A stretch of DNA of 64,000 bases from Halichondria panicea (Eukaryota; Porifera; Demospongiae; Suberitida; Halichondriidae), in the NCBI RefSeq assembly GCF_963675165.1, contig NC_087379.1, positions 2,050,201 to 2,114,200 of the forward strand. The letters run 5' to 3'. Both the position numbers and the translations under genes were made by a program. Each line of letters opens with the position of its first letter. The stretch's first letter is position 1. Under the pieces are notes generated by a model. It worked only from the letters and a program-made list of their open reading frames with translations. It made no database searches and was not told the origin of the DNA. This document shows positions 6,081-47,279 of the stretch, one piece after another.

Positions 6081-7400
6081 TCAAACTATAATTTTTTCGC
6101 TCGCAATTATTTTGAACTTGATGTGACCATTAACAATGTACCGCACTCCAAGAGGTGGGTAATCTATAGAGTCATAGTCTATTCGAAGTTGATCGTTATA
6201 GTCGCCCCTTGTAACTTCCAAATCTTTGGTAATCTGATAGTGGCTATGATCACCGGTCTGATTGAGCATAGTGACTGTCATTGTGAAGGTTTTTGGCCAC
6301 TTGAGGTTGACGTTTGCTCTGGTGTTCACTGGGGTGAGCTCAAACTCAATCCTGCCTGATTCGTATGTAAAGTATAAATTAACCTTCATGATGTATCCTG
6401 TTGGAACAGTACGGAAATCATAACTGTTTATCCATCTTTTAACCTTCACCTTTTCTTTTATATAGTCGACAGTCACATTAGTAACGCTAACGCCCACGTG
6501 TTGTGTGAGAGTGTCTATCTGACTGGATAAATCTAACAGCTCTTTAGATTTGGATTCAAGCTCTTCTTCTAGTTTTCCATACCTTTGTCGTAAGTTGTCA
6601 ATAATTATTAATTCTTCATTCTTTTCTCGTAGCTTAGCGTTTATATCTTCTTGTAAATTAGCAATTTTTTCGTCTTGCCTCTTCTGATTCTTGATAAAGT
6701 AGCTAGTCGATAACCTCAAGTGTTTCTGAGCAGCTTGCTCCATGTGTTTGTCCGCGTCCTTCCGTTGGACCACCTCCTCACAGCCCAGCTCCTTCAGTTC
6801 ACACTCGACCATTGCCAGAGGACACTCTCTCAGGTGCCTCTCCAGTTGACCTCTCTCTAGGAGAGCCACTCTACACTCGTTGGGGCACTCCACCAGGTAC
6901 TTTGAGCACACTGGGAGGTGGTCATCTTGGATCTCTTGATACGTTCCCTCTATCAGGCAGTAGTTACAACTGTGTGGTCTCTTGGGACAATCGTTAGTTG
7001 TGTGCTTCGATAGAAATCTCCTTTCAATAGCTTCGCCACAGTTGTATTGGCAATCCACAAAAACTAATTGGCAATTCTCACCAAGGTGTTGTTCTAGCTC
7101 TCCCAAACCACCCACCCAGTCACAATCATTAGCTTTGTTATCGCAGTAGACCTTGAGATCGAGAACTCTTCTTTGTTGCTTCTTGTCTAAAAGTGTCGTG
7201 AAACTGTTCTCTTTACAAAAAGGGCAAGGTTTGTTGTCAGTGAGTATTGTTTGGATGCAAGCTTGACAGAAATGTTGTCCACAACAGCTGGTAAGGCTGG
7301 GCTCTCGGGTCACATGCAGACACAGGGGGCATTCGTAATCCTTCACACTCTCAACAAACTCACATTGCATAGTATAGCCACTCAATTGAAGGGAGGCCAT
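6081..7400 (-). CDS. TRAF-like protein: RING, zf-TRAF, coiled coil, MATH
   Basis: Single-exon 439-aa protein. RING finger C24-x2-C27, C40, H43, C45, C48, C59, C62. Several TRAF-type zinc fingers at about 86-220 (Cys and His pairs at C110/C117/C121/H133/C138, C145/C148/H161/C165 and C172/C176/H189/C193). Coiled coil about 235-310 rich in Glu/Lys/Leu. MATH/TRAF-C domain about 320-435 (the WPKTFTMTVTMLNQTGD segment and the final VNGHIKFKI strand). This is the full TRAF order, so it probably trimerises, binds receptor tails and acts as an E3 ubiquitin ligase in cytoplasmic signalling; that role is inferred from the family. The start is the first ATG in frame; no earlier in-frame ATG is needed for the domains. 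A decayed tandem copy lies immediately downstream on the same strand. Confidence 0.92.
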   Translation of the reverse strand: MASLQLSGYTMQCEFVESVKDYECPLCLHVTREPSLTSCCGQHFCQACIQTILTDNKPCPFCKENSFTTLLDKKQQRRVLDLKVYCDNKANDCDWVGGLGELEQHLGENCQLVFVDCQYNCGEAIERRFLSKHTTNDCPKRPHSCNYCLIEGTYQEIQDDHLPVCSKYLVECPNECRVALLERGQLERHLRECPLAMVECELKELGCEEVVQRKDADKHMEQAAQKHLRLSTSYFIKNQKRQDEKIANLQEDINAKLREKNEELIIIDNLRQRYGKLEEELESKSKELLDLSSQIDTLTQHVGVSVTNVTVDYIKEKVKVKRWINSYDFRTVPTGYIMKVNLYFTYESGRIEFELTPVNTRANVNLKWPKTFTMTVTMLNQTGDHSHYQITKDLEVTRGDYNDQLRIDYDSIDYPPLGVRYIVNGHIKFKIIASEKIIV

Positions 7401-7981
7401 TTTGGTGCTTAGAATAGTGTCACATGAGCGATGTCATTTATTGTCAGTGGTTTACCGAATTAGATCATATGCACTGTGTCATTTCATGATGCTCTAACCA
7501 ATATATTCTTGGTGTTGTATCATAATTATTCATTTGCATACAGCCTTATTGTTATACTATTATTAGTGGGTACTAAATTTAGCATTTTAGCGATTTTTTA
7601 GCAAATTTGTGATTAGCATGTAATTAAGTACGCTCTAATATTAAAAAAATTATGAATCTCATAAAAAAAATTGTTTTTTCTACTTTTGAGGTTATGTTTA
7701 ATTAAGCTAGCTCTTTTTGTCATCTGTACCTGACTCCATTCAACTTTAAAACTACATCTTTTGACAAATATTGTGCTAATAAATTTGCTACAAATAGCTA
7801 GTACCCTAAAAACTGAAAAATCTGTAAAATTTACCTATCTATATCTATAATAATAGTAACATTAAGGTATACGTTATGTTCGTCCCAACCTTATAATAAA
7901 CATGTAGCTACTCTAGAGCTATATATATGGCATGTAAAAGTATAAATGCAGCAGGACTTCATAAACTAGGTAGTCTGACGA
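7401..7981. other. AT-rich spacer between TRAF copies
   Basis: Strongly A/T-rich. At about 7560-7620 it contains TGGGTACTAA and TTTAGCG motifs like those inside the MITE at 45911-46135, so it may hold an eroded relative. No gene seen. Confidence 0.45.
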
Positions 7982-9288
7982 TTATTTTTCGGTTACAAAT
8001 ATTTGGAACTTGACGTGGCCATTAACGATGTAGTTCACTCCAGGAGGTGGGTTATCTATAGTGTCATAGAATATTCGAATCTCATCGTTATGCTCCTTCC
8101 TCTTCACTTCTAAATCTTTGGTAGTGTGATAGTTGTCATAGTTACCGGCCTGGTTGAACATAGTGACAGTCATTGTGAAGATTTTTGGCCATTCGAACGT
8201 GTCGTTAGCTCGAGTATTCGTAGGAGTGAGCTCAAAATTAATCAAACTACCACCATTGAAAAACAAATTCACCTTTATGATGTATCCTGTTGGAATAGTA
8301 TGAAACTGCTCACTGTTTATCCATCTTTGGTGCTTTACCATTTTCTTTGTATAGTTTACGGACACATTAGTGGAGATAGTGGCATATGTTGTGTAAGAAT
8401 GTCCACCTGACTGGATAAATCTGACAGCTCCTTAGATTTGGATTCAATTTCTCGAGTTACATTCCCGTATTCTTGTTGTAACTTAGCAATTGCTTTATCT
8501 TGATTAGTTACTGCGGACAATTGTTGTTCGAACGGCTGTTTCAATAATCTTTCATTCTCTTCTTTTAGCCTAGCGAATGCTTTGTCTGATTCTTGCTAGT
8601 TGATAACCTCAAGTGTTTCTGAGCAGCTTGCTCCATGTGTTTGTCCGCGTCCTTCTGTTGGACCACGTCCTCACAGCCCAGCTCCTTCAGCTCACACTCG
8701 ACCATTGCCAGAGGACACTCTCTCAGGTGCCCATCCAGTTGACATCTATCTGGGGGAGCCACTCCACACTCGTTGGGGCACTCCACCAGGTACTTTGGGC
8801 ACACTGGGAGGTGGTCGTCTTGGATCTCTTGATACGTTCCCTCCAGCAGACAGTAGTCACAGCTGTGTGGTCTTTTGAGACAATCGTTAGTTTTGTGCTC
8901 TGTTAGAAATCTCCTCATATAAACTTCTCCACAGTTGTATTGGCAATCCACAACAACAAATTTGCATTTCTCGCCAAGGTGTTGTTCTAGCTCAGTCTCC
9001 CAAACCATCCACCCAGTCACAACCATCAGCTTTCTTATCGCAGTAGACCTTGAGATCGAGGACTCTTCTTTGTTGCTTCTTGTCTAGCATGGTCACGTAC
9101 CCTGTCTCTTTGCAAAGTGGGCAAGATTCTTTGTCAGTGAGTATCTTTTGGATGCAGACTTGACAGAAGTGCTGTCCACAGCAGCTGGTGAGGCTGGGCT
9201 CTCGGGTCACATGCAGACACAAGGGGCATTCGTAGTCCTTCACACTCTAAACAAACTCACACTGGTAGCCCAATTGAGGAGAGGCCAT
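7982..9288 (-). pseudogene. TRAF-like gene, decayed tandem copy
   Basis: Same order as the intact neighbour (RING, zf-TRAF, coiled coil, MATH) but broken in several places. An in-frame TAG replaces a Glu codon just before the RING (near 9248). Four extra bases near 8996 shift the frame after the DWVDGLG motif. A deletion near 8596 removes the start of the coiled coil, and a further shift lies near 8370-8390, before the MATH domain. The four open pieces are 8992-9243, 8565-9026, 8356-8544 and 7982-8365. Domain sequences remain close to the intact copy, so the duplication is probably recent. The presumed original start is the ATG at 9286-9288. Confidence 0.88.
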
Positions 9289-12081: not shown

Positions 12082-13490
12082 TCATTGGCTACTATAGTCT
12101 ACTGCTTCTGAGTAATTCATCTCATTGGCTACCAGCTGATACATTTCTCGGGCATTGTTAGCTCGCGATCGTCGAAGTCTCATGTCTGCAGCACTAGCTC
12201 GTAAGTTTCTTATGGTGTCCTCCATCTTCAGCCATGTATTGCTCTTCTTGAGTAGACAAATTTGTAAAAATGGTACCAGAGGGTTGTCACAAATAAGAAG
12301 CCATGCATCGACGTATTGGCTAGTACTGACTGATCTTTCTTTGTATCTTTGACATAGGAGGTGCAAAATGCAAGAATAGCAACATTGAATAGATAATATA
12401 GAGTTTCGAGGGAATCACAAATTAAACTTACTTTTGTACAAACGATTATTCAGTAGTTTCCAGACAATCAGTCCAAATGATAGAACTCCAGCTGATAGAA
12501 TAGGGAGGTAAGCCATGGCAGTGACAAGATTATGAAAAATCAAGGCAAAAAGGAGTAGTTCCACCCAGTAGCGATGCTTGGGAGTGAATGGAGCATGGTA
12601 TGTATCCATGAAACCAATGTAGTACGTGTTCTTGGTCCATATCAAAACCTTGGAACAGCGTGGAAACCATTGTCCAAAGAAGAGCAGTATACAGTGAAGA
12701 ATCCACCGGCAATGAGGATGATGGCTGCAGCAACAAACCAAGGGGATCGCGAACGAAATATTGCACATTGCTATCGTACACCCAAACTATATATCACTTT
12801 TACCATCAGGATAATCCAAGACCCTGTGTTGTAGTGCAGCAATGACAAACCGTAAGAATTTAGGAGTAGGACAAGTGTGCCTAGGGCAGCAACTGGGTTC
12901 CTGTTGGAGAGGAGTTTTGCAAAATACTTCTAAAATGAATAAAAAACATTAGAAGAAACAAGTAAGCGGGAAAAACAAGTTGAAAGCACTTTTGCTTGAG
13001 AGTTCATTCCATTGTAAAAGCATGTCTCAATGCCTAAATCAACAGTCAACCATGATAAAAATAACTATTAACTTCGAAAAGTCTATGTTAGCGTAAAAAT
13101 GAGGCCATGAATGTCCAGTTACTATAGTGATGTTGAGCACGAGAATTAAAGCAACTAGCAATATACCTGCCATCGCAAATGGTATTAGTAGAAGATTGAA
13201 AAGATTAGAGCATTCTTTACAATTTGACGTAGCCAACACAAGACTGAGTCCTGATTCACATTCTCCGCACAAGACACCACTTCGATTGTGGGCACACTGT
13301 TCATCAGGGTTGCTTAGATTTACTTTCTCTGGCTGCAGAATACAAGTCCCAACTTGTATTCTGCAGCCAGAGAAAGTAAATACTGGTTTTTGTACGCAAT
13401 AGTCAAGTGTACAACTGCTAACAACATAAATTATATATCCTGTCTCATTGGTGGTATTTATGACATGTGTTAATACTTCTTTCTAGCGTC
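12082..13490 (-). pseudogene. Multipass Cys-rich receptor-like gene, decayed
   Basis: Pieces in order on the minus strand: an extracellular Cys-rich part with the CGECESGLSLV motif; a membrane segment with NLLLIPFAMAGILLVALIL (13039-13272); an NLDLGIETCFYNGM motif near 12985; a YDSNVQYF motif near 12770; then FFGQW, TYHAPFTPKHRYW and further hydrophobic helices (12415-12700); and a basic C-terminal tail (12082-12366). This is a large sponge/cnidarian family of uncharacterised receptors with a Cys-rich ectodomain and several membrane helices. Stops and frame changes separate the pieces, and segments are missing between 12840 and 13040 and around 12370-12415. Compare the intact 602-aa protein at 21196, which shares the general layout but is not a close copy. 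Confidence 0.7.
13319..13380. repeat. Perfect 29-bp hairpin inside receptor pseudogene
   Basis: TTTACTTTCTCTGGCTGCAG and the following bases to 13347 are exactly complementary to 13352-13380, with a 4-base loop. One arm is the expected receptor coding sequence; the other is an inverted copy inserted next to it. See findings. Confidence 0.9.
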
Positions 13491-15773: not shown

Positions 15774-18219
15774 ATGGCTAGCACTATCACTAGCAGTGAT
15801 GCTTGCTTATTGCAAGAGCTAGATTGGGATAAGCAAGATGTTGCCTTCCATAACAACAAGGGGAAAAATGTTGAGCTGTCAGAGAAGGACACAATAGTCA
15901 GCAGAGTGAAGGGGGCTACTGCAGTCCGCGGCATTGTGTTTACAAGAGAGCCTCTGTCCATTGGGCAAATATTTCAAGTAGATATACTGCAGCAAGATTT
16001 TTGGGGAACTGAGTCTGCAAATTTGGTTAGCCAGCAGTATAGCTACTAATTTGTAATATAGATCTAATTTATCCTCTGTCAATGCAATACAGAGACTTGG
16101 GTTCACTGGAGAGGATCCTTCCAGCTCAATACTGCCCCTTAAACCCCAGTTGGTGTGGGATCACGGCCTCAAGCACTTGCTCACTGTTTGCAAATCTGTC
16201 CACTACAATGGAAAACATTGTGGTACTTTCAATTCTCTTAATTTTGCGAAGTCAATCGGTATATTACTCACAAATAAGGGAGATCTTCACATTTGCACTA
16301 ACAAGAAGTGGAGCAGTGCCATTCATCTCGACAACTACCCCCTCAACATACCAATGTGGGGGGTGGTGGAAATGATTGGAGGTAGTAGAAAAATGAAGGC
16401 TGTCACTTGGACGGGTGAGTTCGTTTGAAGCTTGTATCACAGTATTTATTTTATTCATAATTATAATTATATATCTATATCTAATTATTTTTGCATGCAT
16501 GCATAAATTATAGATCTAACATAATAGAGTAAAATGGCCTATTTATTTAACCACAGTAATGTGCTTTACAGCTCTGACATGCATTAATTACGATACGTTC
16601 GTGAAGCGTCCTTATAAGTTCATGAAGTCATAAAATTAAAATCACAAATATTGTAAGTATTTATCAACTTTTTGAGACTATACACAAACTGGTGGCGAAG
16701 CCCTGAGTGAATGTGGTGACGTTTTTTTAACTTGTGGTGAATCTAGTGTACTAGGCTACTATAGCTACTCTATCTTGGTATAGATATCGTATTAGTAGAA
16801 TGTTTTGCAGGTGAAAACCTAAGTTGCGAATGAGCCAATCAGCATAAAAATTGACCTTTTGCGATCTAACTATTGCGTTCTGACAATGATCGTGTGTATT
16901 TACCAGTACTAATATTGTTGCGAATTGATCGACCCTCGCAAAGTTCGCGTATGTTTTAGTAATACAGTAGTGCAGACTCCCGGTGGTCTATTTTGTAAGC
17001 GGCTGTTACAAATAATTATTTGCCTCAAAAGTTCATGTGAGGTGCAAAGCACAGTGTCACAATTGTGTCTAACAAATGTCACTTTTTCATGCATACAGTT
17101 GGGAGCACATATCCGCCATATGCTGAGAAAAGAATGATGGACATGGGATTACTCAAAGGAAACGAAGAAGCAAGATTAGAGCCTCAAAACAAACAGGATA
17201 TCGATAAACCGGCAATGGAGGCAAATGTTATTCAACAGCTGGAAGAATCTCTTAAACTTGAAATGCAAGATAAACTACAACTACTTCAAAGAAATATCAC
17301 TAGACAATTACAACAACAAACGGCAGGCTTCAATCACCTCTTTCGAGAGATGAGAGAAGTCATCGCTTCTGGACACCATCATTGTCAATTGGATTGCCGT
17401 GGTAATCAACAGGAAGAGGAATTTTGGCAAGTATCTCCGGAAGAGGTGTCAATTAGAGAGAACGAGATAATTGGCCAAGGGGCTTGGGGCAACGTTACCA
17501 AGGGTTCCTTTAGAGGAACAACTGTAGCTGTCAAACGACCACATCGCGAAATCCTTCAGGGCATAACAGTGGAGACAATTCGTCGCGAGATTCGTACTAT
17601 GGCTCAGATTCGCCACCCCAACCTTGTCCTCTTTGTTGCCGCCGTCCTCAACGAGCAAACAGGTCCCATGATTGTCACAGAGCTCCTAGATACCTCTTTA
17701 CGTTCTGCCTACCAGGACGATCGTGTTGGTCCTAATAAGCGAAGGATCTTTGGAGACATCTCCTCAGCTCTGGTTTATCTCCACCGACAGAGAGAACCCG
17801 TCATCCACAGAGATGTGAGCTCTGCTAACGTCCTCCTTCTCTCTCTACCCAACGACAAATGGCTTGCCAAACTCTCTGACTTTGGATCAGCCAACCTAGC
17901 TCGAGATGCCACCACCCCCGGTCCAGGTGCCATCCTGTACACTGCCCCCGAGGCCTATCCTCGTCCACCTATGTCACCTCAACCACAACTACAACAGACG
18001 ACAAAGATCGATGTGTACAGTTTTGGAGTGCTTACTTGTGAGGTGGTGAATGCCAGACTTCCAGAAGCTGCTATCTTTCAGAGTCTGCTGATGCACATGG
18101 AAGGTGTATGGCCAGAGCTCCACCCACTCATCACCTCCTGCGTCTCTCATTCCCCTCAGGACAGACCCTCCATGGACACTGTGCTACAGCACATCAAACA
18201 ATTGAACTGGGAGCCTTAG
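15774..18219 (+). CDS. NHR (Neuralized) domain-coiled coil-protein kinase fusion
   Basis: Three exons, 15774-16025, 16093-16414 and 17099-18219, give exactly 1,695 bp (564 aa). Junctions: donor GTTAGC at 16026 and acceptor ACAG at 16092 (phase 0, creating the NHR motif RLGFT); donor GTGAGT at 16415 and acceptor ACAG at 17098 (phase 1). Residues about 20-110 form a Neuralized homology repeat (FHNNKGKNVELS, GIVFTREPLSIGQIFQVDI). Residues 110-190 are an extra conserved region. Residues about 205-285 are Gln/Glu-rich and probably coiled coil. Residues about 305-560 are a kinase: G317QGAWG, K337, E355, H428RDVSSANV, D452FG, APE at 474-476. All catalytic residues are present, so it should be active; it is TKL-like by eye. 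Substrates are unknown. NHR domains bind protein or lipid partners, so this is probably a regulated intracellular signalling kinase. A pseudogene piece of a close relative lies at 36838. Confidence 0.87.
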
Positions 18220-21195: not shown

Positions 21196-23004
21196 CTAGT
21201 TCGTAGGATTGTGAAGTCTGTATCTGTCTGGATTATCTACTCTGTCTGGTAGATCTTCCTCTAAGCCGTTGTCAGTGTTCATGTAGCCTTGTCTCCACGC
21301 TCTGATTCGACTGATGAGTGTGTTCATTGTTCTCATTCTTGACAGTATCCAGTAAACAGTAAGGCAAGTCATGTAGACGAGTGGGATGATTGCCACGACA
21401 ACTCGGAGTGCTTTGCTTATTTTCAAGACAAGGATTGATTTTAAACTTGAGAAGTTGGTGGTTTCTCCAATAGTATAGAAAGCTGCCAAAAAGGCCCAAA
21501 AAGTGATATCAATTTTAGCGTACTTTGACAAATGTTTCTTGTATGGTTGAATAGCTGCTGTAAGTACAATGATGATTATAATTATGAGTACTATAAAGGA
21601 GCTATAGTTGCCATCTAGTATCATAGCATAAGTTAGAGTCAGTGAAACGCGACCTACCAAAGGCACCGCTGCAAACCAGCGATAATCTCGTGTTCCATCT
21701 GTTCCGTTCTTGTAGTAACCCTGAAAAGAGTCCATCAGTGCATGGATTATTCGACCCTTGATTTTGCAGCAGTTCAAAGCATTTTGGCAACACTTCAGTT
21801 GGTAGAAAAGAAGAAAACTCGTTGCTATGATCAGTAATCCAGAACAGGTTATTGCTGGGACAGCATATGGAATATGTTCATTCCCAAAGTACTCGATGGT
21901 AGCGTCATTGTACAGCACCCAAGTAATGTTGTCGTTTGTGATGCTATAAGCTCTTACTGGAATAAGTAGGTCAGCAGACACAAAGAAAAACTTGCTATAT
22001 GAAAGCACAAAGAAAGTAGCATAAGCATCAATTACTGTAGTCTTACTCTCCCAGTTTCTACGCACAAGTGTGAATACATGACGGAATGGTCTCCACAAGA
22101 TGACTACTAGTCTAAAGTTTCTAGCATGTAACTCGATCAAGATATACGAGACAACAGTCAACATTAGTGGGTAGATAGCCACTGCATAGTCCAGAGCTAA
22201 GACTGTGAGTGTGGACACATCAAGACAAATGTCTAGATCAAGAATTCTAAAAAAGTCTAAATTCCAAATTTCGTACATAAGTTCAATTATCTGAATAGGA
22301 ACCTTCGACTCAGGGTGATTATGATTATACGTTACAACACCTCGACTGTAAGTAGGTATGGATATTATCTGGCTGAAAATAATGTAGCCATGGAGATGAG
22401 AAGAGTTTGCATTGATCTTGAAGAATAGGACCAGAAAGTAAAATACTGTAAGTGGACCGAATGCTACGAGAATGTACTTCCAGATATTTCTGTTCCTCTC
22501 AGGGCATTTCACACATCTCATGTCGTAAGAGTAAGCCAGTGGAGAGTGTCCAGGTAGACACCTCCCACACAGTCTTCCTGTTCTGTTCCACCTCTCCTCA
22601 CACATGAATTGATTTAGTTGGGATAGATCTTTTGGCAATGGAAGGTAGTCACTTTTGTAACGATTCTTCTCACAGTTTTCAATGCAATTCCCTTGAATCA
22701 ACTGATTGGTCACATTGTCAAATGTCACACAGTGGCAACGAAGAACAGACAGCTGCAGTGTATCTTTGTCACATCTGAGTGCATAATGATTCATCAACTC
22801 ATCTTTGCAAATGCACTTCGTTTTGTTGCATTCGGTCCATGGCAGACAATCGATGTCTGCTTTACAACTGTGTGGTTGAGTGCTACCTTGTGTCCATTCA
22901 TCTTTTTGACATTGCATAGAACTAGCAGACAACAGTATAATATATAGGATTGCTAGCACATTCATAACTTGGCTTTGGAACTTCTTCTTTGAGCTCATGA
23001 TCAC
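21196..23004 (-). CDS. Cys-rich multipass membrane receptor-like protein, 602 aa
   Basis: Single exon. An N-terminal signal anchor (MNVLAILYIILLSASS) is followed by a luminal/extracellular region of about 150 residues with many Cys (CKADIDCLPWTEC, CKCIC-like pairs, RCHC). The conserved juxtamembrane motif is GRLCGRCLPGHSPLAYS...RCVKCPER. About eight to ten hydrophobic helices run through residue 570 (for example YILVAFGPLTVFYFLVLFF and SSFIVLIIIIIIVLTAAI), and a short Asp/Arg-rich tail follows. Several N-x-S/T sites lie in the ectodomain. It belongs to a large, uncharacterised invertebrate family (a CGxCxxGxSP box before a multipass region). Function is unknown; a cell-surface receptor or channel-like role is only a guess. 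The first Met (23004) and the Met at residue 14 are both possible starts. Confidence 0.82.
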   Translation of the reverse strand: MIMSSKKKFQSQVMNVLAILYIILLSASSMQCQKDEWTQGSTQPHSCKADIDCLPWTECNKTKCICKDELMNHYALRCDKDTLQLSVLRCHCVTFDNVTNQLIQGNCIENCEKNRYKSDYLPLPKDLSQLNQFMCEERWNRTGRLCGRCLPGHSPLAYSYDMRCVKCPERNRNIWKYILVAFGPLTVFYFLVLFFKINANSSHLHGYIIFSQIISIPTYSRGVVTYNHNHPESKVPIQIIELMYEIWNLDFFRILDLDICLDVSTLTVLALDYAVAIYPLMLTVVSYILIELHARNFRLVVILWRPFRHVFTLVRRNWESKTTVIDAYATFFVLSYSKFFFVSADLLIPVRAYSITNDNITWVLYNDATIEYFGNEHIPYAVPAITCSGLLIIATSFLLFYQLKCCQNALNCCKIKGRIIHALMDSFQGYYKNGTDGTRDYRWFAAVPLVGRVSLTLTYAMILDGNYSSFIVLIIIIIIVLTAAIQPYKKHLSKYAKIDITFWAFLAAFYTIGETTNFSSLKSILVLKISKALRVVVAIIPLVYMTCLTVYWILSRMRTMNTLISRIRAWRQGYMNTDNGLEEDLPDRVDNPDRYRLHNPTN

Positions 23005-24680
23005 AAAATATAATTTGCTGTTTAATCATTCTTCAATTTATTCTAGCAGTTTCGTAATTATTGTGAGTACACTGTATAGATGCTTTAATTAGCTGTGTAA
23101 GCAACACTATGTTTCTTCTCCAAATGGTGCATATATTATGCTATTATGTTTAGAGTTGTGAATTCAACATTGGGGTACTTACCATTCCTATAAACATGTT
23201 GTTTATAGTCAAATACACAATTAAATTAAAGTACAGATTTTAATCACACCAATGCATAATTATGCATGTGCGCTCATTATTCTTAGAAACGTTGAGTCGC
23301 GGTATAAGATATAAGGTATGAAAGAGAATATCTTTTCAAAACAGCCAGCACATCTCTGTTGACAATCAGGTTCCCTGCAGTGTAAGATGATATACAAAGC
23401 AATAACAACAATGAAAATCTGCTTCTCTATACTCCTAACTATACATGTTGATTTCTCAATTCCACTGGTGCAGATAATGTACAACAACAGTATAATAGTG
23501 CCATACAAGTTGCCATTAATTTTAGCATAGTACACACATAGTTTAAGTAGTACTAAATAATTATTTCGAGGAAACTTTCGCGGAATGACCATTAGAAACG
23601 TTTTTGCGGATTTAATATTCGCTGAATAGTAGCCTTTTTGCAGCATGCATACATTGCGATATTAATTGGGGGTATAAATGTTTGCGGTAGATGCTTGATC
23701 AGCGAAAACCATGAACATTTATACCCTCGAAAAATATACCCGCTATACAGTATATACGTAATGTGCTATAAGCTTAGCAGACTATAATTATGGTTCCTTA
23801 TACACATGTACCATATAATTTTACCCAAGATCACAATGGCAGTATACAGGCCTTCCACTGACATTTACCACTATACGTAAGAGAGTGGTGTGTGTGCGTA
23901 CAAGGAGCATAATGAGCTAGATGATTCAATTGCTATCAAGCTGCTTGTGTGGATATGTGAGGGGGCAGTAGGAAGATAAGGTTTGAGTGGATATTAGTTA
24001 ATGTACAGTGCAAAGGGATTTATGGCTGCATGTATACATCAATTCAATTCATTCAGCAATATTATACATAATTATAACTATACAGCACAAACCTATATAG
24101 ACCAGGTAAGCTACGTTTACTTTTCAATGAGAGGGAAGTGTTGCAGGATGGTGTTCACGTCAATTCTGTTGAGTATCATGAGTTTGCAGTGAGTGGCTGC
24201 TCTCACAGTCGCAGTGCGGGGGACACCACCAAATAGGAAACCATGCAAGCTGTGGGGGGGAGGCAATTACAAAAACAGATTGTTGAGGCAGTGGATTTAT
24301 ATATGTACCACTTGTAGAACCGGTATTGATAGCAATTAATCATGACTAAACAATTACATGTACCTCTCCGATGTATTTAGCTGCCTATACCGAGGATAGT
24401 AGTGACCACCACCTGACTTAAATCTTCAGCAAGAATCTGAATTCCCGGAAAATATGGTACAATAGTGCATGAGTAAAAACAATAGCAAGTGGGTAGGCTA
24501 CAGGTGTGCATGTGATAAACATGGCGAAGTCATTATGCAGCTTAACAATGCCAATGGTATCAAACAAACACGTGATTCGTATCAGGGTGACCATACAAGG
24601 AATCTTAGAGCTTAAAGGTAGATCTCATAACAATTTGCAGTTTTCTAAGTAAGAGTATGAGCTAAATCCTTACGCTTGAA
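23005..24680. other. Intergenic between receptor and kinase-Kelch genes
   Basis: Mostly AT-rich. At about 23555-23755 is an eroded MITE-like segment (TTTCGAGGAAACTTTCGCGG, then CCCTCGAAAAATATACCCGC) related to the 52782 family. A G-run lies near 24255. No supported exon. Confidence 0.45.
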
Positions 24681-26939
24681 ATGGTCGAGGAAAGACATCC
24701 AAGGCCAGAGGAGCAATTGTTTAGTTTTAGAAATGTGCAGCTATTCAAGAATGAAATCCTTGGTACTGGTTCTATGGAACTGTGTATAAAGCCAAGTGTG
24801 ACCAGCTATTCTGTGCTGCCAAAATCCTGTATCCAGCGTTACTCAAAAGGCATGATGATCCTGATCCTGGCTTTGAGCATAGACAACCTTTCCAGAGATT
24901 TGAATTAGAATGTCGATTTCTTAAAAGCATTAACCATCCCAATATTGTGCAGTACTTGGGGACCTATTGCGATCCCGACACAAATGCACCAGTTCTTCTC
25001 ATGGAGCTCATGGACGAGAGTCTGACACACTTCCTGGAGTCATCACCTGGAGACATTCCCTACCACATCCAAGTCAACCTCTCCTATGACATAGCTCAAG
25101 CACTTGCCTTTCTCCACTCCAATGAGATCGTCCATCGCGACCTCTCCAGCAACAATGTCCTACTATTAGTCAGGCCGTGCTAAAGTTGCCGATTTTGGAA
25201 TGTCTAAAATAATAGCCACTGGTAGAGTGCACTTCGCAATGATGACAACATGCCCTGGTACACCAGCCTTCATGCCTCCTGAATCTTTAGATGAGCTACC
25301 AGTGTACACTGACAAAATAGACATCTTCTCCTTTGGTGTACTGGTCATTCAAATCTTGACACAACAGTTCCCCAATCCAACAAATCGATTTGAAGTGATA
25401 CCTGACATAGTCAATCCTAACAACCCTTCCCTCAATGTAAGAGCTCAAGTGTCTGAAGTGCAACGAAGACGCGCTCACATCAACTAGCTGGACTCCACCC
25501 ACCCTTTCTTACCGACAGCTTTAAACTGTCTCAACGATGAAGAAGCTGATAGGCCAACATCACAGGGGCTTTGCTCAGCGATTAGTTTGTTAAAAATCAA
25601 AATGACATACCATGAGAGTTGTCAACAAGATAGAGGTCAGGTGATCTGTGTGAAAGATGAAATAATCTGTGTCAAAACTGAACAGGTCCAAATTAAAGAT
25701 GAAGATTTAGTCTCCAAGATTCACCAATTTCCAGAGAACCAAAGATATCAATTGGAAGCAAAAGACGCTGAGATTGAAAGATTAACGCATGAACTACATG
25801 AAACTACCAGACAAATTCATGAAAGAACAAGACAGTTAAAAGAGACAAACCAACAAATACAAGATACTGAACAAATCATCGCTCAACTTAATAAGATTGC
25901 TAGGAAAGAAACAGAAACGGAACAGAACGATACCGATGTCAAGCAACAATCACACCCTGAACGAATTCTAGGAGCCGGCACTGCCGAAACACAGGAAATA
26001 ACAGTATCAATTGAAGGTTCAACAACAACACCATATGCCACAGTTTATGACCAAATTGCTATAGTAGACGACAAAGCATATTTCAAAGCTCACGACAATG
26101 TTATATTAGAATACAGTACAACAAGTGCGAAGTGGTCAGCAATCAAGGGCCCACTTTCTAATGGCTTCTCAATAGTTAGTGTCGACAATATCCTAACAAC
26201 TGTAGGAGGAGATGGATTGCTTTCTTATTCAAATAAACTCTACTGCTACCAGAACAAAAAATGGGTCGAAAAATTTCCTCCAATGAAGTGTAAACGTCGC
26301 TTTCCAGCAGTAGTTTATGCACAGATAAATCTGGTTGTAATTGGAGGAAGCAACACCAATAAGTTTCAGGATCAATATTTCAGTCAAGGTGCAGTAGAAG
26401 TTTTGAACACCAAAACTTCACAATGGTCTGTAGTGAAGCAAATTCCACGGGGAGATCTATACACGCTTATTTCAGCCACTGTACATGACAATCATATCTA
26501 CGTACTAACAGTTGAGGAGTTTATCTTTGAAGCAGGCATAACCAGCACTTTAGGACTGGTTCCAAAATCATGCAGATCAAGTTTATTTTCTTGCTCAATA
26601 GCTAATCTGAAAAATCCAAAGTGGCAAAAATGTTCTTCCGTACCACGATTACATACATGCATTACTTCGATTAACGGACTCCTGTTGGCTATCGGTGGCT
26701 ACAAACAAATCGTTTATCCAAATCAGTACCTTGTCTCAACAGACCCTGTAAGTAACGACATTTTCGAGTACAATCAATTGAAAGACGAATGGAATATTAT
26801 TGGACAGATGTCAGTGCCAAGATCATACTGTTCAGCTGCTGCTCTTACACAAAATAAACTTATAATTGTAGGCCGTGCTCATTTATTTAACAGTTTTGAG
26901 GCCAGATCTACAGCGGACTTTGTAAACATTGACGTATAA
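24681..26939 (+). pseudogene. Protein kinase-coiled coil-Kelch protein, kinase half broken
   Basis: One continuous architecture with three lesions. (1) In the Gly-rich loop near 24770 one base is missing (GTG then TATGGAACTGTG needs a shift). The frame then runs from 24772 to about 25165 through AAKIL, the HPNIVQYLGTY motif, FLHSNEIVHRDLSSNN. (2) One extra base near 25163 moves it back before RAKVADFGMS. (3) A single in-frame TAG at 25485-25487 follows the C-lobe. Beyond the stop the same frame is open to 26939: the end of the C-lobe (DEEADRPTS), a Gln/Glu coiled coil (about 25720-25910), then roughly six Kelch-type beta-propeller repeats with WS/W and GG motifs (KWSAIKGPLSNGF, NLVVIGGSN, LLLAIGGYKQ, DEWNIIGQMSVPRSYCSA). 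From the ATG at 25587 a 450-aa Kelch protein could still be made. Sequencing error could explain some lesions. Confidence 0.8.
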
Positions 26940-28273: not shown

Positions 28274-30183
28274 GCACGCTATAATGAAAGCGTACTGGAA
28301 TCTGACATTCCTGGAGCGTCACTCTGCGGTAGGGACCCAAGCCAGCCTAAGATTCCAGAGTTGAAGAGGTGGCTAGTTTGTCGTGGAGGATCTGTAAGGG
28401 GGAATAAAGCAGACTTGGTTGCAAGGTATATCATAATAGTTATATGCAAGCTAAAATTAATAGTGAAATAGGTCTAGAAGACTAAGTTAGATATAGCCTA
28501 GCCAGCTTCCTATTATCTTCTATGTTTTTTACAGAGTGAGAGACTACATAAAGAATGGTTGGGCTAATCAGCTGATCAATCCTGATGGTACCACTCAAGC
28601 GTGTAGTATTCCCACCGCTTCACAGCAGATGGTTTCAAATGATCAGCCGTTGGAGTGGAATTGTATTAAGACTTTGTACAAAGACCCATCTGGTGTCCTC
28701 AATTTCACTAATGCTCAGATTGTGACCTATTTGTGGCTCTACTGTTTCGGACGGTCTTCAAGCAAGTGATTTTAAAGGCATGAATCAGAACGCATCCAAT
28801 CTGTTTCAGTGTGGACATGTATAACGTATTCAAATAGGTACAGCTACCAATATTTGGGTAAGGGCAGACTACCTACCCGAGATGAAAAAGGATCGCATAT
28901 ATAAACTCTTGTTATGCCTCAATTGTCATACTTTTGACGTTCTAAGTGCACAGTGTGGATGCCCTGCTGGCAAAGGACTGGCTGCCAACTGCAAACATAT
29001 AGGTGCATTGTGCTATGCACTCGAGAGTTTCTGTAAGCATGGACAATTTCCAGATTTCCTCACTTGCACACAGAAATTGCAAGAGTGGAACAAACCCAGA
29101 AAGAAGAAAGTGGACCCTGTACCTGTTTTGGATATAAAGGAACACAATTACAAACTTAAAGGTTCATGGGGTCACGTACCCCAACTCAGTATGACCCCAG
29201 GCCTCCAAATTTTCGGTTTAAAGACGCTACCGAGCAACTAAGAACTGATCTACTCTCGTTGCCGCACTCATATGCTCTGACCACTCTATTGGTTCCTTGT
29301 ACCCAAAAAATTATGCGTGATCATTGTTACGCCGCCAGTGAAATGACAGCACCATGTAAGGATATCTTGTATTCTGAACTTGTTTGCCCTTACACCGAAG
29401 AAGAAATGAAGACAGTGTGCCCACTTATACAAAAAGCAGTATGAATGTATCCATGCTTGAAAGGCTCAGAATAGAAGAAGCTACTAGATCGCAAAATTCC
29501 TCTTCTGTCTGGTGTGTTGAACGCTCTCAGCGTATCACTGGGTCCAAATGTGCCTGTATTATTAAACAGGTAAAGAAAACCTCATCTCTTCTTCGAAGTG
29601 TGCTGTACCCTAAACCGTTAATGGACCCCTTACCTGCCCCTATCAAGTGGGGACGGGAAAATGAGAATCGTGCTCGGCTAATGTATGAAAAGCATATGAA
29701 CGCTACTGGACACCTTGGTCTGACAGTAAGACCATGTGGATTCATCATTCATCCCTGTAAGTGTTGGCTAGGAGCCTCACCTGACGGTGTCGTTGTTGAT
29801 CCCACTGCTGATATAAATTCCATGGCTGGATTACTGGAAATCAAATGCCCTTATTCTTGGCGGGACACTAAATTTAATGAAGCTTGTAAAGATCTCAATT
29901 TTTATTGTTCACTGGATAGTGCTACAGTCTAAAGCGAGATCATAGTTACTATCATCAAGTACAGTTGCAATTGTATGTCAGTTCAGATTTGTACAACTGG
30001 TGGGATTTTTGTGTTTTTAACAACCATGGAGTGATGGTTGAAAGGCTTACTCTTGATGTGGAATGGGTTCAGAAATACATTCCGCATAACATTATTTTGA
30101 TGAATTTGTGCTCCCTGAGATTGTGTATCCTAAGAATAAGCCCCCTTACATTCTGTAACTTTTCATTATTGTATTCATGTTAA
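28274..30183 (+). pseudogene. Transposon protein: SAP-like, SWIM zinc finger, YqaJ nuclease
   Basis: Exon 1 (to 28426) reads a SAP-like DNA-binding motif (ELKRWLVCRGGSVRGNKADL). Donor AG|GTATAT and acceptor ACAG (28533) join it in frame to RVRDYIKNGW. A frameshift near 28735 and a stop near 28830 break the next part. SWIM zinc finger CGCPAGKGLAANCKHIGAL at about 28955-29015. YqaJ-type exonuclease domain at 29490-29930, with the GASPDG and LEIKCPYSW catalytic-region motifs. A further frame change near 29925 precedes the YYHQVQLQLYVS segment. The protein would cooperate with the transposase during transposition, possibly as a nuclease; its role is not established here. Disrupted, so not functional. 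Confidence 0.75.
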
Positions 30184-30214: not shown

Positions 30215-31345
30215 ATAATTATGTGCACAGTGGAGGCCAAAAATTAGTCAATGCAGCACAAACAAAAAACATTTGGTCCGTTAAATCAGTTAGAGTATTG
30301 GGAAGAGTACGCGCAATCCGTCTTGTCTCAACCATTTCACATTCTGTCAACTGAGGCTTTTCCCTTTAGAAAGGGGGGAATGTTCAGTTTAACACCTAGT
30401 GGGGTTAGATCATCTTGAATATCAAATCCACGGTCAGCCATCACTGAATCTCCACTCTCGAGAAGTTCCAGGAAACCACTTTCTCTCGTCAATGCCCTGT
30501 ATCGGAGATACTACCGGGAAAAAGTTTCGATATAAAAATAATTGCACCTGATGGGGATATTCCAATTAAACCTTTGAATGTGTTGTTGTTTTTATAACTA
30601 GAGAATGTCATCTGCTGCACAACCGGCAAAGATGGCTTTTCCACATAAATTTCTGTAGCGTCTATTATGACCCTTGTAAACACATTTGGCATATAAGTGT
30701 TGATGACTTCTTGAGGTGGCCATATTGGAATGTCCTTTACTTTTAAATATATCCAAGTAGTAAATATTCTAGAGACAGTGGAAGTAGACACACCAAATCT
30801 ATCTGCAAGATCTTGTTCTAGGAGCCCAAGTCTTAGCCTCATAAGAACCATGAAGAATTCTTCAATTGGCAAAAGGCTTCTAGTTTGACGACCACGGGCC
30901 TTGGTGGAAGAAATTGGGGTTCCGCTACTTTCTTTCTTCTGACTATTGGAACTCCAATATATTACATGCATCATTGACTGATGGGGCCCAGATAATGGTA
31001 GCACATGATAAAGCCATCGTATGTAGGGAATCCTGTATAGAATGCTACTTTGCGATCATCGTGAGCTGTACTTTGTATTGAAATCGGAGAAACTTGTTTA
31101 GTAAGAACTTCAACAGTATGCTCAAGCTCCTCCACACGATGCAACAAATCTTCAATATCAGTTCCTATTATGTCAGTACAAACTACCTTATCACAAACAG
31201 TTCCTGATATGTGCTCGCTCTCAGGCATACGCCGATCGGTCAATGGAGATTTTTCTCTTCTCTTCTGTGATGGTTTTCTGATAGTACTTTGAGAGGCTTG
31301 TGTAGGCAGTACAAGAAGTTTCAGAGTTGGATACTCGCCACTCAT
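30215..31345 (-). pseudogene. IS5/ISL2-type DDE transposase, decayed
   Basis: Starts at 31345 with a basic/acidic leader and a coiled coil (about 31100-31180), then FYTGFPTYDGFIMCYHYLGP. The frame changes near 30980. The second frame has the helix-turn-helix region (DLADRFGVSTSTVSRIFTTW), then VIIDATEIYVEKPS (first catalytic Asp) and FSSYKNNNTFKGLIGISPSG. Another shift at about 30490 leads to [13 protein letters not shown] (second Asp), with a stop in the PPF motif. The block that should carry the third acidic residue (HVERA type) is deleted: the sequence jumps from ETRRIA to RTLPNTL. An inactive enzyme. Confidence 0.78.
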
Positions 31346-32574: not shown

Positions 32575-32946
32575 ATGAAAACCATGCAGGCATTATAGTC
32601 TAGGAGTGATACAAAATTGTTAGGTGGTTTTGGGCGGAAATATAATAAGGCTGCAGCATCATAAATATCGATAAGTCTCAATGGTGGATTATACAGCACA
32701 TGAAAGAAAATCCGATACTCTATTCGCTATAATTTATAGTATCAGGAAGATTGATACTACTAAGATCAGGAGTGCATGAATCATGCACTTCTATTTAATA
32801 TTGTACCTTGACCTATATGTGCCTAACTTGCAGCTGGCTGAACTATTTACAAGGCTGTAGAGAAAGCTTGTACGCCTAGGTACGTACATGAGCCTGCATC
32901 CGTATAATTATGTAGTTGACCTCAAGTCCAACATAAATATTGGAAA

Positions 32947-33083
32947 ATGGCAGAAAGTCATGTGCCCATCAAGGAGATGACGGATGTGCTGCGTGTTTTC
33001 AAGGACACCAATGCACTCAAGAAGGGCTCGTGGGTGAGGATCAAACGCTCCATCTACAAGGACGACATTGCTCAAGTGCATGA
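32947..33083 (+). pseudogene. SPT5 (SUPT5H) KOW-linker fragment
   Basis: An open stretch encoding [13 protein letters not shown], then [20 protein letters not shown]. This is the highly conserved NGN-KOW linker/KOW1 region of SPT5 ([13 protein letters not shown]...[18 protein letters not shown], from recall). Homology stops at about 33083, where a (GTGGGT)n tract starts, and collagen-domain sequence in the opposite orientation follows from about 33130. No other SPT5 exon is adjacent. It is a captured or translocated exon fragment, not a functional gene. Confidence 0.78.
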
Positions 33084-33129
33084 GTCTAGTTACAGTGTGG
33101 GTGTGGGTGTGGGTGTGGGGGTGAGTGTG

Positions 33130-33631
33130 TGTATCCGCTTTGTTCCAGGCACGTTTGGGAAAGTGCTGCCCCCCACCTTGTGTACACAACACCCCCGCTC
33201 TTTGGTCCTGGTGTACCAGTATTTCCTCGAGGGCCAGCCTCCCCTTCACTCCAGGCAATTTTCTAGGTCCTTGCGGCCCATTGGCTGGGCCTGGCTTTCC
33301 TCTGAATCCAGGCGGTCCTGTTATTCCATCTCTCCTATCTCTTCCTGAGCTGCTCCCTGGTTGACCATCACTTCCTGCAGATCCAGGCTGACCGTCACGA
33401 CCATCTCTGCCTGGAACCCCTCGTTTCCCTTTAGGTCCCATATAGCCCTGGTGGTCCTGGAAGCTCACCTTTGGCACAAAATGTGTAGCATTCAAGTTTT
33501 GTGTTATATAGTATTGTGGTCAAATTACGAGTCTGGTTCAATTACCTGGTGCCACTAGTACTTGTACAGCAGCTATAATCACAACAAACACATGCACGCT
33601 CCACTTCATGTTCACAATCAAGCTCTGTCTT
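33130..33631 (-). pseudogene. Short-chain collagen, copy 3 (decayed, truncated)
   Basis: The signal-peptide exon 33546-33631 is intact (ATG at 33607-33609, [12 protein letters not shown]). The helix exon starts at 33468 with Gly-X-Y repeats, but an extra codon (GSSSGRD), an R-for-G change (GPRKLPG) and a one-base loss after GVKG shift the frame. The C-terminal domain ends abruptly at the RIY-equivalent (about 33130), where a GT-rich microsatellite and the SPT5 fragment take over. Flanks from 33480 to 33980 are nearly identical to those of copy 4 (35340-35830), so the duplication is recent and the loss later. Confidence 0.85.
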
Positions 33632-34525: not shown

Positions 34526-35456
34526 TTACTTCGTGCAGAGAACACAGTTGACTTCTTTATAGTCATTGTAAGGAGGGCAGGGTAGTCCACTAATACAGTT
34601 AGCTTCGACGTGGTAGAACAGAGCACCATCGGTATTTACATGACTTCCAGGTACCGACTCTTGTCCTTTATCAACACATTCAAACATTGAGGGTTTATGG
34701 CTGTGACGCTCAGACATGAGATATCCCTCGTATTCTTTGGTCCAGTATTGAGGGCATGAAGTCTTTGCAGGAATCATGAGAGCAATTGATCGACTCGTCA
34801 CATGGCAGACTGAACAAGGAACATTGTGGGCATGTGTACCTCGGACTGGATATTCATATTCTGTACCATAGATGTACATGTTCCCTTGGATACCACTTTG
34901 AAAAGGTAGAGTATATTCTGGATCAAGAGGTAAGCATAGACGATTTGCTGCCCCCCCATGAATGTAGTGACTCCCCCCAACTCTCCCGTTGTATATCCGC
35001 TCTGTTCCAGGCACGTTTGGGCAAGTGCTGTTCCCCCACCTTGTGTACGCAACACCCGCGCTCTTTGGTCCTGGTGCACCAGTATTTCCTCGAGGGCCAG
35101 CCTCCCCCTTCACTCCAGGCAATCCTCTAGGTCCTTGCGGCCCATTGGCTGGGCCTGGCTCTCCTCTGAATCCAGGCGGTCCTGTTATTCCATCTCTCCC
35201 ATCTCTTCCTGAGCTCCCTGGTTGACCATCACTTCCCGCAGATCCAGGTTGACCGTCACGACCATCTCTGCCTGGAATCCCTCGTTGCCCTTTAGGTCCC
35301 ATTAGCCCTGGTGGTCCTGGCAGCTCACCTTTGGCAAAATGTGTAGCATGCAAGTTAGTGTTGTGGTCAAATTACGAGTCTGGTTCAATTACCTGATGCC
35401 ACTAGTACTTGTACAGCAACTATAATCACAACAAACACATGCACGCTCCACTTCAT
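34526..35456 (-). CDS. Short-chain collagen, copy 4 (intact)
   Basis: Exons 35393-35456 and 34526-35328 (867 bp, 288 aa), joined G|GT in the same phase as copy 2. Signal peptide [21 protein letters not shown] triple helix of about 27 Gly-X-Y triplets with the same GPANGPQG imperfection. A Cys-rich C-terminal domain starts at about [11 protein letters not shown] and ends CVLCTK. Secreted matrix collagen of the sponge short-chain/spongin type; trimer formation is expected from the helix. The untranslated first exon probably ends near 35696 (donor GTGAGT), and the TATA block is at 35807-35825. Differences from copy 2 are mostly single substitutions, and all Cys of the C-terminal domain are kept. 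Confidence 0.88.
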
Positions 35457-44654: not shown

Positions 44655-47230
44655 TTATTATTATTATTATGTGAACTTTACAGCTATGCACAAAAGAAAT
44701 TAAGTGAAAAGATTGGGTGAGAGGAAATAGCTGACAGATTTACTCCAACATTGGAGCAGCTGATGTATATTATATAATCTATAGAGTGATAAGAATAGTT
44801 AACAGAGGAGCCTATAAAAATGACATTTAGAGCATGGGCAAACCATATGAAAGGAACATAAGTTATTTGTGTCAAAGTTTTCTAGAAAATCTGACACTAA
44901 AAAGTCCGAAGTCTTTTTCTTGATTGTTCCTAGAGATAAATCTAGATTTATTAAATTCGACGGCAATTTATTCCATACTTTTGCAATTCTAATGAAGTAG
45001 AAGTGTCTTGAATAGTTATTTCTAGCAAATTTAATTTGAAGGGAATGGCCTGAGCAGCCTGCCCTGGTTTTGGATGAAGTGAAAGATACTAGTTCTCTTA
45101 TATCATCTGACTGCTGCTGCATACATTTCACAATAAACATGATATCTTGCAGTTCAAACCATCTCATGAGGGGCAATAACTTTAATTTGCAGAGTCTTGC
45201 TTTGTAGTCTGATACATAATCATTAAGGATATATTTGATGGCTCTGCGTTGCACTTTTTCTAGTCCTTTATTAATTTAGGTCTCCACAACTGCGAGCAAT
45301 ATGTTAAGTGAGTTCTGACAAGAGACAGATATATTGTTTCTTTAAATTAGTTGAATAGTTTGTTGGAATGATTCTTCTAATAAGATTGAGTGACATGTAA
45401 GCCTTTCCACATATTTTACTATGCTGTTGAGACCATGAGAGATCTTGCGTAACTGTTATCCCTAAATCACGATAAGAATTGACTTGTTCTATGGTGTTAT
45501 CCTGAACAGAGTAATGACTAGTTTCTTCAGTTTGCTTCAACGATAGTCTAATAGTTTTGCATTTGGACACATTGAGTCCGATATTTCACTTTTCACACCA
45601 TAAACTCAAACCATTCAAATCATCTTGCATAAGAATTTCGTCCCTTGTATCTCTAAAGGATTTCAACAGTTTTGTATCATCAGCGAACAAGAAACACTTA
45701 GAATTCTGGATACAGTCAGGTAAGTCATTGATGTATACTAGGAATAGTATAAGACCTAAGATACTGCCTTGTGGTACTCCAGACTTTACAGGTAACATAG
45801 TTGAGCTTTTATTTTCCATTGTTACATTATGAACTCTCTGTAACAAATATTCCTTGAACCAAAGCCATAATGGGGGGCTGTTATTCCTAATTTCCAAAGC
45901 TTGAAAAGTACCTTAAGGTTGGTATTATTGGCGGGTACTAATTTTAGCGGTTTGCTGAGATACTGCATTTGGCGGGTACTAATTTTAGCGATTTGAAATA
46001 ACTAGACTGGCGACGCGACGATATTACTCTCTAATTGTACGTAATGTTGACGTGTTTGTATTATTAGCGAGTGGTTGATTTAGCGAAAAAATGTCAATTC
46101 GCTAAATTCGCTAAAATAACAACCCGACCTTAAGGTAACTCATTATGACCAACGGAGTCAAAAGCTTTTTTAAAATCTAAATAAACAGCATCAACAGCAC
46201 AGCTATTTTCAATTTCTTCTTGGATAAAAGCATAGGAACACAACAATTGAGATAAGCAAGATCTATTCTTCAAGAATCCATGTTGACATTTAGAGATTTT
46301 GCCTTTAATGAAATCTATAATTTTATCATAGACCAGCCTCTCAAGCACCTTTCCTACAATGCACAACAAAGATCGTTGAAAGCAGAGACTATGGAGGACA
46401 TGTCAGAGAGTGGACAGCCCTTATACATGATGTATTGCATATATATATATTTGGTCTATTGTCGCTTAAGCTGCTAATATAGCTGTATAGCTTCTTCGGT
46501 TGCTTATTGAAGGTTTTAGTTAGACCTGTTATGAATGTGCTCTTGGCCTCCATCATTTGAGAGGTTAAGTTATTTTCCACTTCCACAAGCTTGTTGAGTA
46601 GATAGGGTGTGCTTGAAGATCCAATACGTTTCCTTAAAGACTTGACTTTATTTAGGTTGTGTCTGATCTCAGAGGTAAACCATCTAGGAGATGTGACAGT
46701 AGGGATCCTTAACTTGGGAACAAATTGAAGGCAAGCATTGGTAATAATGTCTTTAGTGAGATTCCAGGAGTAACATGGTTGTAGAACTGATACATCCTCA
46801 AGTTGGTAATAGACATCCTCCATAAAGCCTAATAAGCCTTCTTTGTCTACCTTGGAGTAGTTTAACACGTAATCACAATTGTTTTTTTGATGAAGTTGGT
46901 TATTCCTCTTAGAAAGAAAAACAAATGTTATGAAAAAGTGATCTGAATGTAGCCTACGTTGAGAAGTATTCACTTCTAAATTGACTATTCTCTGGGGAAC
47001 ATTTGTTGCTATTATGTCCAAGATATTGCCATGTATGTGGGTAGGCTCTGTAACCAATTGTACTAAATTAAGTGAGAAGAGCGTATCACAAAGTGATGAG
47101 GAAAAATGAGAACTTGCAGTCATGATAGACCAAATAATGTCAGGACAATTAAAATCTCCAAGCAGTAGTGTAGGTTTAGAAGTATCAAGTGATGTGATGG
47201 CCGTTAAAACATTGTTTAGATATGTATTGT
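44655..47230 (-). mobile_element. CR1/jockey-type LINE relic
   Basis: Minus strand, 5' to 3': end of the endonuclease (LLLGDFNCPDI, then LVTEPTHIHGNILDIIATN, 47123-47190 side); a linker; reverse transcriptase (GKVLERLVYDKI, CQHGFLKNRSCLSQL, YLDFKKAFDSVGHN; then GVPQGSILG, the FADD catalytic box near 45680, YRDLGITVTQDLSW); then the C-terminal part (RRAIKYILNDY, FFYFIRIAKVWNKLP-like). It ends in an (ATT)n tail at 44656-44672. Broken by stops, a deletion between 46389 and 46370, and the MITE at 45911-46135. 5' truncated. Confidence 0.85.
45911..46135. mobile_element. MITE with CCTTAAGGT ends in LINE, TA duplication
   Basis: Termini CCTTAAGGTTGG and CCGACCTTAAGG, TA at 45909-45910 and 46136-46137. 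The interior repeats GGCGGGTACTAATTTTAGCG twice. It interrupts the LINE reverse transcriptase after the GHNELP region, so it is younger than the LINE. Confidence 0.82.
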
Positions 47231-47279
47231 GTTACTATATATGACAGTGTTATGTTGCTATGCCCTCGGGATATAAACT

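Follow-up and report, generated by a model that had tools for sequence, protein, structure and literature searches.

The gene and its surroundings

The window, by which we mean the whole stretch of 64,000 nucleotides of the Halichondria panicea genome that was analysed (G000:C3:2050201-2114200), contains on its forward strand a gene of three exons, 15774-16025, 16093-16414 and 17099-18219. When joined, they give 564 codons and a stop, with intron 1 in phase 0 and intron 2 in phase 1. The protein is predicted to begin with a Neuralized homology repeat (NHR) and to end with a protein kinase. This model had been proposed in an earlier note on the DNA, and its coordinates, phases and length are all reproduced when the exons are joined. 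The features are:

15774..16025, forward strand: exon 1, start codon and N-terminal half of the NHR, residues 1-84
16026..16092, forward strand: intron 1, 67 bases, phase 0; the paralogs have GT-AG at the homologous place
16093..16414, forward strand: exon 2, C-terminal half of the NHR, residues 85-191, with RLGFT at its start
16415..17098, forward strand: intron 2, 684 bases, phase 1
17099..18219, forward strand: exon 3, linker and kinase, including the stop codon
17101..17424, forward strand: linker, residues 193-300, Gln/Leu-rich, a possible coiled coil that is weak in this gene
17458..18192, forward strand: protein kinase domain, Pfam residues 312-556
17605..17904, forward strand: kinase core, residues 361-460, an apparently homogenised tract that differs little at silent sites from the array kinases described below
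17806..17829, forward strand: catalytic loop HRDVSSAN, residues 428-435, with Ser at D+2

Several other features lie in the window. About 6.4 kb downstream there is a second, different kinase gene (24661-26939, forward strand), found as pieces in several frames, with the motifs HRDLSSNN and ADFG. Its kinase is followed by a stretch resembling a coiled coil, and the Kelch repeats (Kelch_6, 40.2 bits) come last; the frames look split, by introns or by disruptions. A TRAF-like gene on the reverse strand (6081-7433) has TRAF zinc fingers at 61 bits, its RING-type and MATH matches do not reach their cut-offs, and the frame beside it (8565-9083, reverse) has, by eye, a similar zinc-finger part. A Cys-rich protein of 609 aa with a multi-membrane look and no Pfam match is encoded at 21196-23025 (reverse), and a shorter frame at 13039-13482 (reverse) has a Cys pattern like it, again by eye. 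Four collagen-like frames, similar by eye, stand on the reverse strand in two groups about 30 kb apart (68-670, 1933-2784, 32908-33519 and 34526-35371); one of the four was checked and matched Collagen in Pfam at 50.7 bits. Pfam also finds pieces of mobile elements, namely a YqaJ exonuclease (29378-29932, forward), a DDE_Tnp_4 transposase (30489-31055, reverse), an endonuclease-reverse transcriptase (46389-47231, reverse) and a reverse transcriptase (59297-59956, reverse). Rfam gives no match in the window at gathering scores.

Domains of the protein

Pfam supports the claim that an NHR and a kinase are encoded together: Neuralized (PF07177) matches residues 25-187 with 63.1 bits (E 3.6e-17, cut-off 23.3), Pkinase matches residues 312-556 with 102.5 bits (E 3.3e-29, cut-off 31.7), and PK_Tyr_Ser-Thr gives 99.7 bits against a cut-off of 23.1. 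Beyond these, no Pfam family matches the 564 aa at E 0.01; the scan finds a single NHR stretch with no tandem repeats, and no RING, B-box, NACHT or Death-type domain. At E 0.01 a profile of eight NHR sequences of the sponge's own genome finds three different solved sequences, each of them an NHR, namely KIAA1787 (2E63) and Drosophila Neuralized (2YUE, 4KG0), with E values of 1.1e-9 to 3.3e-9. When the whole protein is compared with solved structures, 1193 distinct sequences are matched, and the best 60 of the 1193 match through the kinase. The best are the TKL-type kinases CTR1, TNNI3K and MLK4 (E 7.1e-21 to 8.4e-19); Csk and Src kinases match too.

The earlier note saw in this kinase every catalytic motif. 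That is correct for the Gly loop (317), K337, the alpha-C Glu (in RREI), HRD (428-430), N435, DFG (452) and APE (474). It fails two positions past the catalytic Asp: Lys is the usual residue there in Ser/Thr kinases (signature HRDLKxxN), the window gene has Ser, and its catalytic loop contains no basic residue at D+2 or D+4. CTR1 has HRDLK in the alignment where the window gene has HRDVS, and TNNI3K and MLK4 carry HRDLK as well. HRDVS, with its Ser at D+2, is present in all seven aligned kinases of the same genome, which represent several subtypes; hence "catalytically complete" should be taken to mean that the core residues are present.

For the linker, we used a heptad proxy and counted how many of 200 shuffles reach the observed value. 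The count is 23 for the window gene and zero for the paralog clu_34505; across five members it is 0, 6, 23, 24 and 48, and this is a proxy only. As the signal is clear in clu_34505 and not in the window gene, dimerisation driven by the linker is a guess.

The gene model in the light of paralogs

We searched the genome (131 Mb, 39 contigs) with the protein and obtained 81 matches, 26 of which are kinase-exon matches at no less than 59% identity, the window's own included. The regions fetched contain a close family of 25 kinase exons, again counting that of the window, and these mostly stand behind NHR exons; two remoter kinase exons on C8 (64% and 45%) are outside the count of 25. C3_5877k was dropped before the list of 25 loci was drawn up. 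We modelled 22 of the 25, window included, omitting C3_95k and clu_18636 for their disrupted frames and clu_53782, which has no kinase.

One argument of the earlier note for the splice has to be withdrawn. The motif RLGFT was said to be created by splicing, while in fact it takes up the opening five codons of exon 2 (16093-16107) and is also part of the unspliced frame 16057-16428, so it lends the junction no support. The paralogs do. GT-AG stands at both homologous junctions in 17 of the 22 modelled loci, window included, on contigs C3, C13 and C15; phases 0 and 1 were imposed in this search, hence the figure supports the borders and is no independent support for the phases. The five without GT-AG at both borders are C11, C3_569k, clu_25444, clu_37342 and clu_45832. 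The donor of exon 1 (TTG followed by GTTAGC) is identical in the C13 copy. The order N-terminal NHR half, C-terminal NHR half, kinase recurs across the fetched regions, which were searched with the three window exons, and at C3_569k, clu_5206 and clu_34505 the whole of exon 2 and the kinase lie within one open frame.

It could be argued that an upstream NHR gene and a downstream kinase gene have been wrongly joined, given that the model was made from sequence alone, that a gap of 684 bases precedes exon 3, and that NHR exons exist without a kinase at clu_53782. The recurrence of exon order and borders in both subfamilies (defined below) and on three contigs, together with the three loci where one open frame spans exon 2 and the kinase, makes this hardly credible in our opinion. 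As far as the genomic sequence can tell, the NHR-kinase fusion holds as a gene model. With 25 close kinase exons in the genome, the earlier note's suggestion that the gene may represent a lineage-specific signalling architecture also stands.

An expanded family with disrupted members

Thirteen of the 25 close kinase exons are located inside one 59-kb stretch, a tandem array at C3:446-503k, about 1.6 Mb from the window gene on the same contig; clu_53782 is the unit of this array that has NHR exons without a kinase. Fifteen of the 25 kinase exons are uninterrupted and keep HRD and DFG (one of these has Asp in its Gly loop), six are frameshifted, stopped or truncated, and in four the HRD Asp is replaced by Tyr or Asn. 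Scanning prokaryote contigs gave 27 loci, all from bacterial records, at 21-30% identity, and no relative was found in the viral contigs scanned.

Two subfamilies can be distinguished. Subfamily A consists of the window gene and the C13 copy, 76% identical in the NHR and 94% in the kinase; subfamily B consists of the array, where most of its members are, and similar loci. They were compared with 13 of the 17 complete models, after C15, C3_138k, C3_5105k and C3_116k had been dropped as interrupted, truncated or short in exon 1; the 11 B members so used include three without the HRD Asp. The NHRs of A and B are 37% identical (median of 22 A-B pairs), their kinases 83%. The 55 pairs within B give a dN/dS of about 0.95 for the NHR and 0.44 for the kinase. 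The window gene and its C13 copy, the one pair that a subfamily of two sequences can offer, have an NHR dN/dS of 0.35, and this single A pair gives no sign of diversifying selection on the window gene.

Selection on the NHR of subfamily B

The selection set consisted of the 12 B loci, among 19 with readable NHR exons, whose kinase is uninterrupted and keeps HRD. The seven others were dropped (C15, C3_138k, C3_5105k, clu_15131, clu_22339, clu_53782 and clu_56897); C3_116k, with its short exon 1, is outside the 19, and exon 1 of clu_37342 was trimmed to its last 59 codons. We used our own implementation of the site models, with branch lengths proportional to the nucleotide tree and a synonymous rate that is constant inside a segment. 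All sequences come from a single assembly, so that the differences are between paralogs and not between species.

Across 176 NHR codons of the 12 genes, M0 gives an omega of 1.44, and M2a is preferred over M1a with a 2dlnL of 235.6, placing 16% of codons in a selected class with an omega of 8.2. The posterior exceeds 0.95 at 22 of the 176 codons, 12 of which fall between codons 82 and 102. In the numbering of the window protein the variable B residues are 50, 51, 78, 79, 81, 85, 102, 103, 105, 107-109, 116-119, 121, 129, 133, 134 and 181. Removal of columns near gaps (115 of 187 kept) leaves a 2dlnL of 149.8. When three NHR segments are given their own trees, the same comparison yields 65.1 for codons 1-64, 71.2 for codons 65-120 and 8.0 for codons 121-176. 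The M0 omega of the middle segment is 1.72 (2dlnL 8.45 against omega = 1); those of the first and last, 1.24 and 1.06, are indistinguishable from 1 (2dlnL 1.38 and 0.04), thus the mean is clearly above 1 only in codons 65-120.

Because recombination and uneven rates inflate a site test of this kind, we simulated two kinds of null data. With no selection and three segments having their own trees and rates, all 20 simulations stayed at or below 43.7; with blocks of about 14 codons and shuffled labels, all 25 stayed at or below 51.9. The simulated nulls average 24-27, well above the chi-square expectation. The test is therefore inflated on such data and nominal chi-square P values are too small, which is why we rely on the simulated nulls, and the observed 235.6 lies far outside them. 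For the kinases of these 12 genes omega is 0.42 and M2a is not preferred (2dlnL 4.5, P 0.1). Hence the NHR of these 12 B genes is under strong diversifying selection and their kinases are not. A fast NHR joined to a near-constant kinase is the pattern expected of receptors for changing targets.

An apparently homogenised kinase core

Silent differences (pS) between A and B change abruptly along the protein. In stretches of 30 residues pS is 0.94 at residues 271-300, 0.43-0.50 in those from 301 to 360, and 0.11 to 0.17 in the five from 361 to 450; beyond the core it is 0.45 at 496-525 and 0.13 at 541-564. The window gene and clu_9232, for example, differ at 66.4 of 107.7 silent sites in the NHR, at 54.4 of 67.3 in the linker and at 10.0 of 76.2 in residues 361-460. 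The same is seen between A and B, where most silent sites of NHR and linker differ and only 9-11 of 76 in the kinase core. Fisher tests on five of the 22 A-B pairs, which are non-independent, give P values from 2.7e-15 to 2.2e-19, and the window gene against its C13 copy gives 3.3e-4.

We considered codon constraint as the cause of the low divergence of the core and rejected it, since a C8 relative differs from the window gene in the core by a pN of 0.12 but a pS of 0.65. Five relatives on C9 and C4 likewise have a core pS of 0.63-0.78 against the window gene.

The contrast between kinase and NHR in A-B comparisons is more than constraint alone. Its simplest reading, as these silent-site profiles suggest, is gene conversion of the catalytic core among copies, some of them on different contigs; the kinase part may instead have been exchanged by another kind of recombination. 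Third-position GC in the core is no higher than in the NHR, so GC-biased conversion has left no visible mark.

The wider kinase clade

The kinase at L022 (C4), used as a query, gave 146 scored matches among 699 first-look candidates. There were 117 at 122 bits or more, with the next at 91; a few of the 117 are two pieces of one exon. L021, 87% identical to L022, has Kelch repeats in its upstream frame (Pfam, 66.4 bits), and the kinase frame of L019 starts with a CAP-Gly piece that at 25.8 bits is just below the cut-off of 26.5. Two N-terminal frames beside C8 kinases have no Pfam match. Judging from adjoining frames, this kinase clade appears to be combined with various front ends, including Kelch, CAP-Gly and unnamed N-terminal modules.

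Two observations on C9 should be added. Frames stand beside the kinases of L019 and L023 (C9:532-553k), and among these only CAP-Gly matched Pfam, under its cut-off; we take them to resemble CYLD, with CAP-Gly, ubiquitin-protease-like and B-box-like pieces. At C9:295-342k (G000) three kinase matches reappear with the same scores after about 28 kb (295744/323915, 304465/332636 and 313796/341738); either a block was duplicated recently or the assembly contains it twice.

Relation to known systems

The NHR of the window protein belongs, by Pfam and by solved structures, to the family found in Neuralized and NEURL4 (KIAA1787). It differs from these proteins in that it has no RING, has one NHR instead of two or six, and has a kinase added. 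Two repeats is one of the numbers that occur within Neuralized and NEURL4 proteins. The number six is given in the abstract of PMC4565672, and an excerpt of Gazave 2009 (PMC2770060) reports the combination of NHR with RING from Bilateria alone.

SPRY domains bind peptides via variable loops, and NHR structures resemble SPRY while forming a separate family (PMC2923778, in excerpt). Kaur and colleagues (PMC8195603) count the Neuralized repeat as one of the SPRY-like domains that figure prominently in the immunity of eukaryotes. Similar in plan by description are the NHR-caspases of Anthozoa, one of which is induced in Nematostella, under treatment with double-stranded RNA according to the title (PMC11251625, in part). 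There, too, an NHR and a signalling enzyme are in one protein; the effector is a caspase there and a kinase here. Teleost finTRIMs and TRIM5alpha also have a SPRY-type domain under positive selection, an expanded family and an effector on the same chain, the selection on finTRIM B30.2 domains being reported in the seen sections of PMC2657112; they differ in that their effector is a RING at the opposite end, and the variable domain is PRYSPRY and not NHR. The TRADD-N and Death-domain expansions of Amphimedon, as described in part of PMC8195603, are likewise a large family in a sponge, in which one unit is constant and the partner domains vary. In our family it is the kinase that is constant and the NHR that varies, and Pfam finds no Death-type domain in the window protein.

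The NHR-kinase would be a SPRY-like recognition domain plus an effector, which is a known plan, here with a kinase as the effector. No NHR-kinase appeared among the titles listed for open-licence full texts, and the excerpts of two papers on sponge immune genes (PMC6208332, PMC12909245) contain nothing on NHR. The pair may, of course, already stand in a database, such as the architectures of Pfam or InterPro.

Presentation of the hypothesis

We propose that the window gene encodes a recognition kinase, a proposal to which we give about an even chance. The NHR, a SPRY-like beta-sandwich, would bind a ligand; the linker would gather copies together; the kinase would then phosphorylate partner copies or a shared downstream substrate. 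Since B members differ mainly in the NHR, each of them would recognise a different or changing ligand, with gene conversion and purifying selection maintaining one common kinase output. From the likeness of NHR to SPRY, its listing among immunity domains, the NHR-caspases and the selection on finTRIMs, we infer a changing ligand for the NHR and a common output through the kinase. By analogy, such recognition kinases would best be read as the kinase counterpart of finTRIMs or of anthozoan NHR-caspases. The protein is presumably intracellular; it would bind a ligand, form oligomers and act as a kinase, and it may have a role in immunity or in distinguishing self from non-self.

Certain observations speak against a recognition kinase. 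The window gene itself sits in the small, slowly changing subfamily A, with the low dN/dS of its NHR against C13; two of the three NHR segments of B have an M0 omega near 1, and the site test is inflated. Furthermore, the coiled coil of the window gene is weak, its catalytic loop has no basic residue, and four of the 25 kinase exons lack the HRD Asp, with six more broken.

There are other readings. The NHR may be a targeting adaptor, as in Neuralized, which delivers the kinase to one unchanging partner, for instance a Notch ligand or a membrane lipid, in which case the genes would be developmental or trafficking kinases. The closest solved domains are indeed the NHRs of Neuralized and KIAA1787, and the window gene's own subfamily is slow (that one pair); but a fixed partner leaves both the omega above 1 in B and the array unexplained, and the RING is absent by Pfam, so we regard this reading as unlikely, if quite conceivable. 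It is also conceivable, and in our opinion somewhat less probable still, that many members are pseudokinase scaffolds and that the family works by binding and not by phosphorylation. The Ser at D+2 in every aligned kinase and the lost HRD Asp in four exons fit this. Nonetheless HRD and DFG are kept in the 15 uninterrupted exons, and a pure scaffold would need less purifying selection than the 12 B kinases experience.

Finally, the variation of the NHR might reflect relaxed constraint in a decaying repeat family and no selection at all. Birth and death are certainly visible, given that ten of the 25 kinase exons are interrupted, truncated or devoid of the HRD Asp, and the nulls demonstrate how inflated the test is. 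Relaxation, however, cannot alone yield an omega above 1, genes with an interrupted kinase had been left out, and both kinds of null fall short of the observed value; we therefore give this explanation little credence. The recognition kinase is the reading we carry forward.

Implications of the hypothesis

Given that the kinase clade adjoins varied N-terminal modules, there may be in this genome a combinatorial system of kinase receptors, which may be comparable in size to the NLR or plant receptor-kinase families. The broadest form of our reading is that NHR kinases are a new receptor class in an early-branching animal, with diversifying binding faces, a kinase shared by conversion across contigs and perhaps such a combinatorial system, the diversification being driven by an arms race or by allorecognition. 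Taken jointly, driver included, this is tentative, and we hold it to be less probable than not.

How animals without adaptive immunity recognise friend, foe and self is an open question. A diversifying family of this kind would supply receptor candidates, a defined set of variable residues and an easy biochemical assay, which makes the question directly testable. It would also be a case of an NHR that, away from ubiquitin ligases, serves recognition and diversifies, and of a multidomain gene in which homogenisation is mainly confined to the catalytic core.
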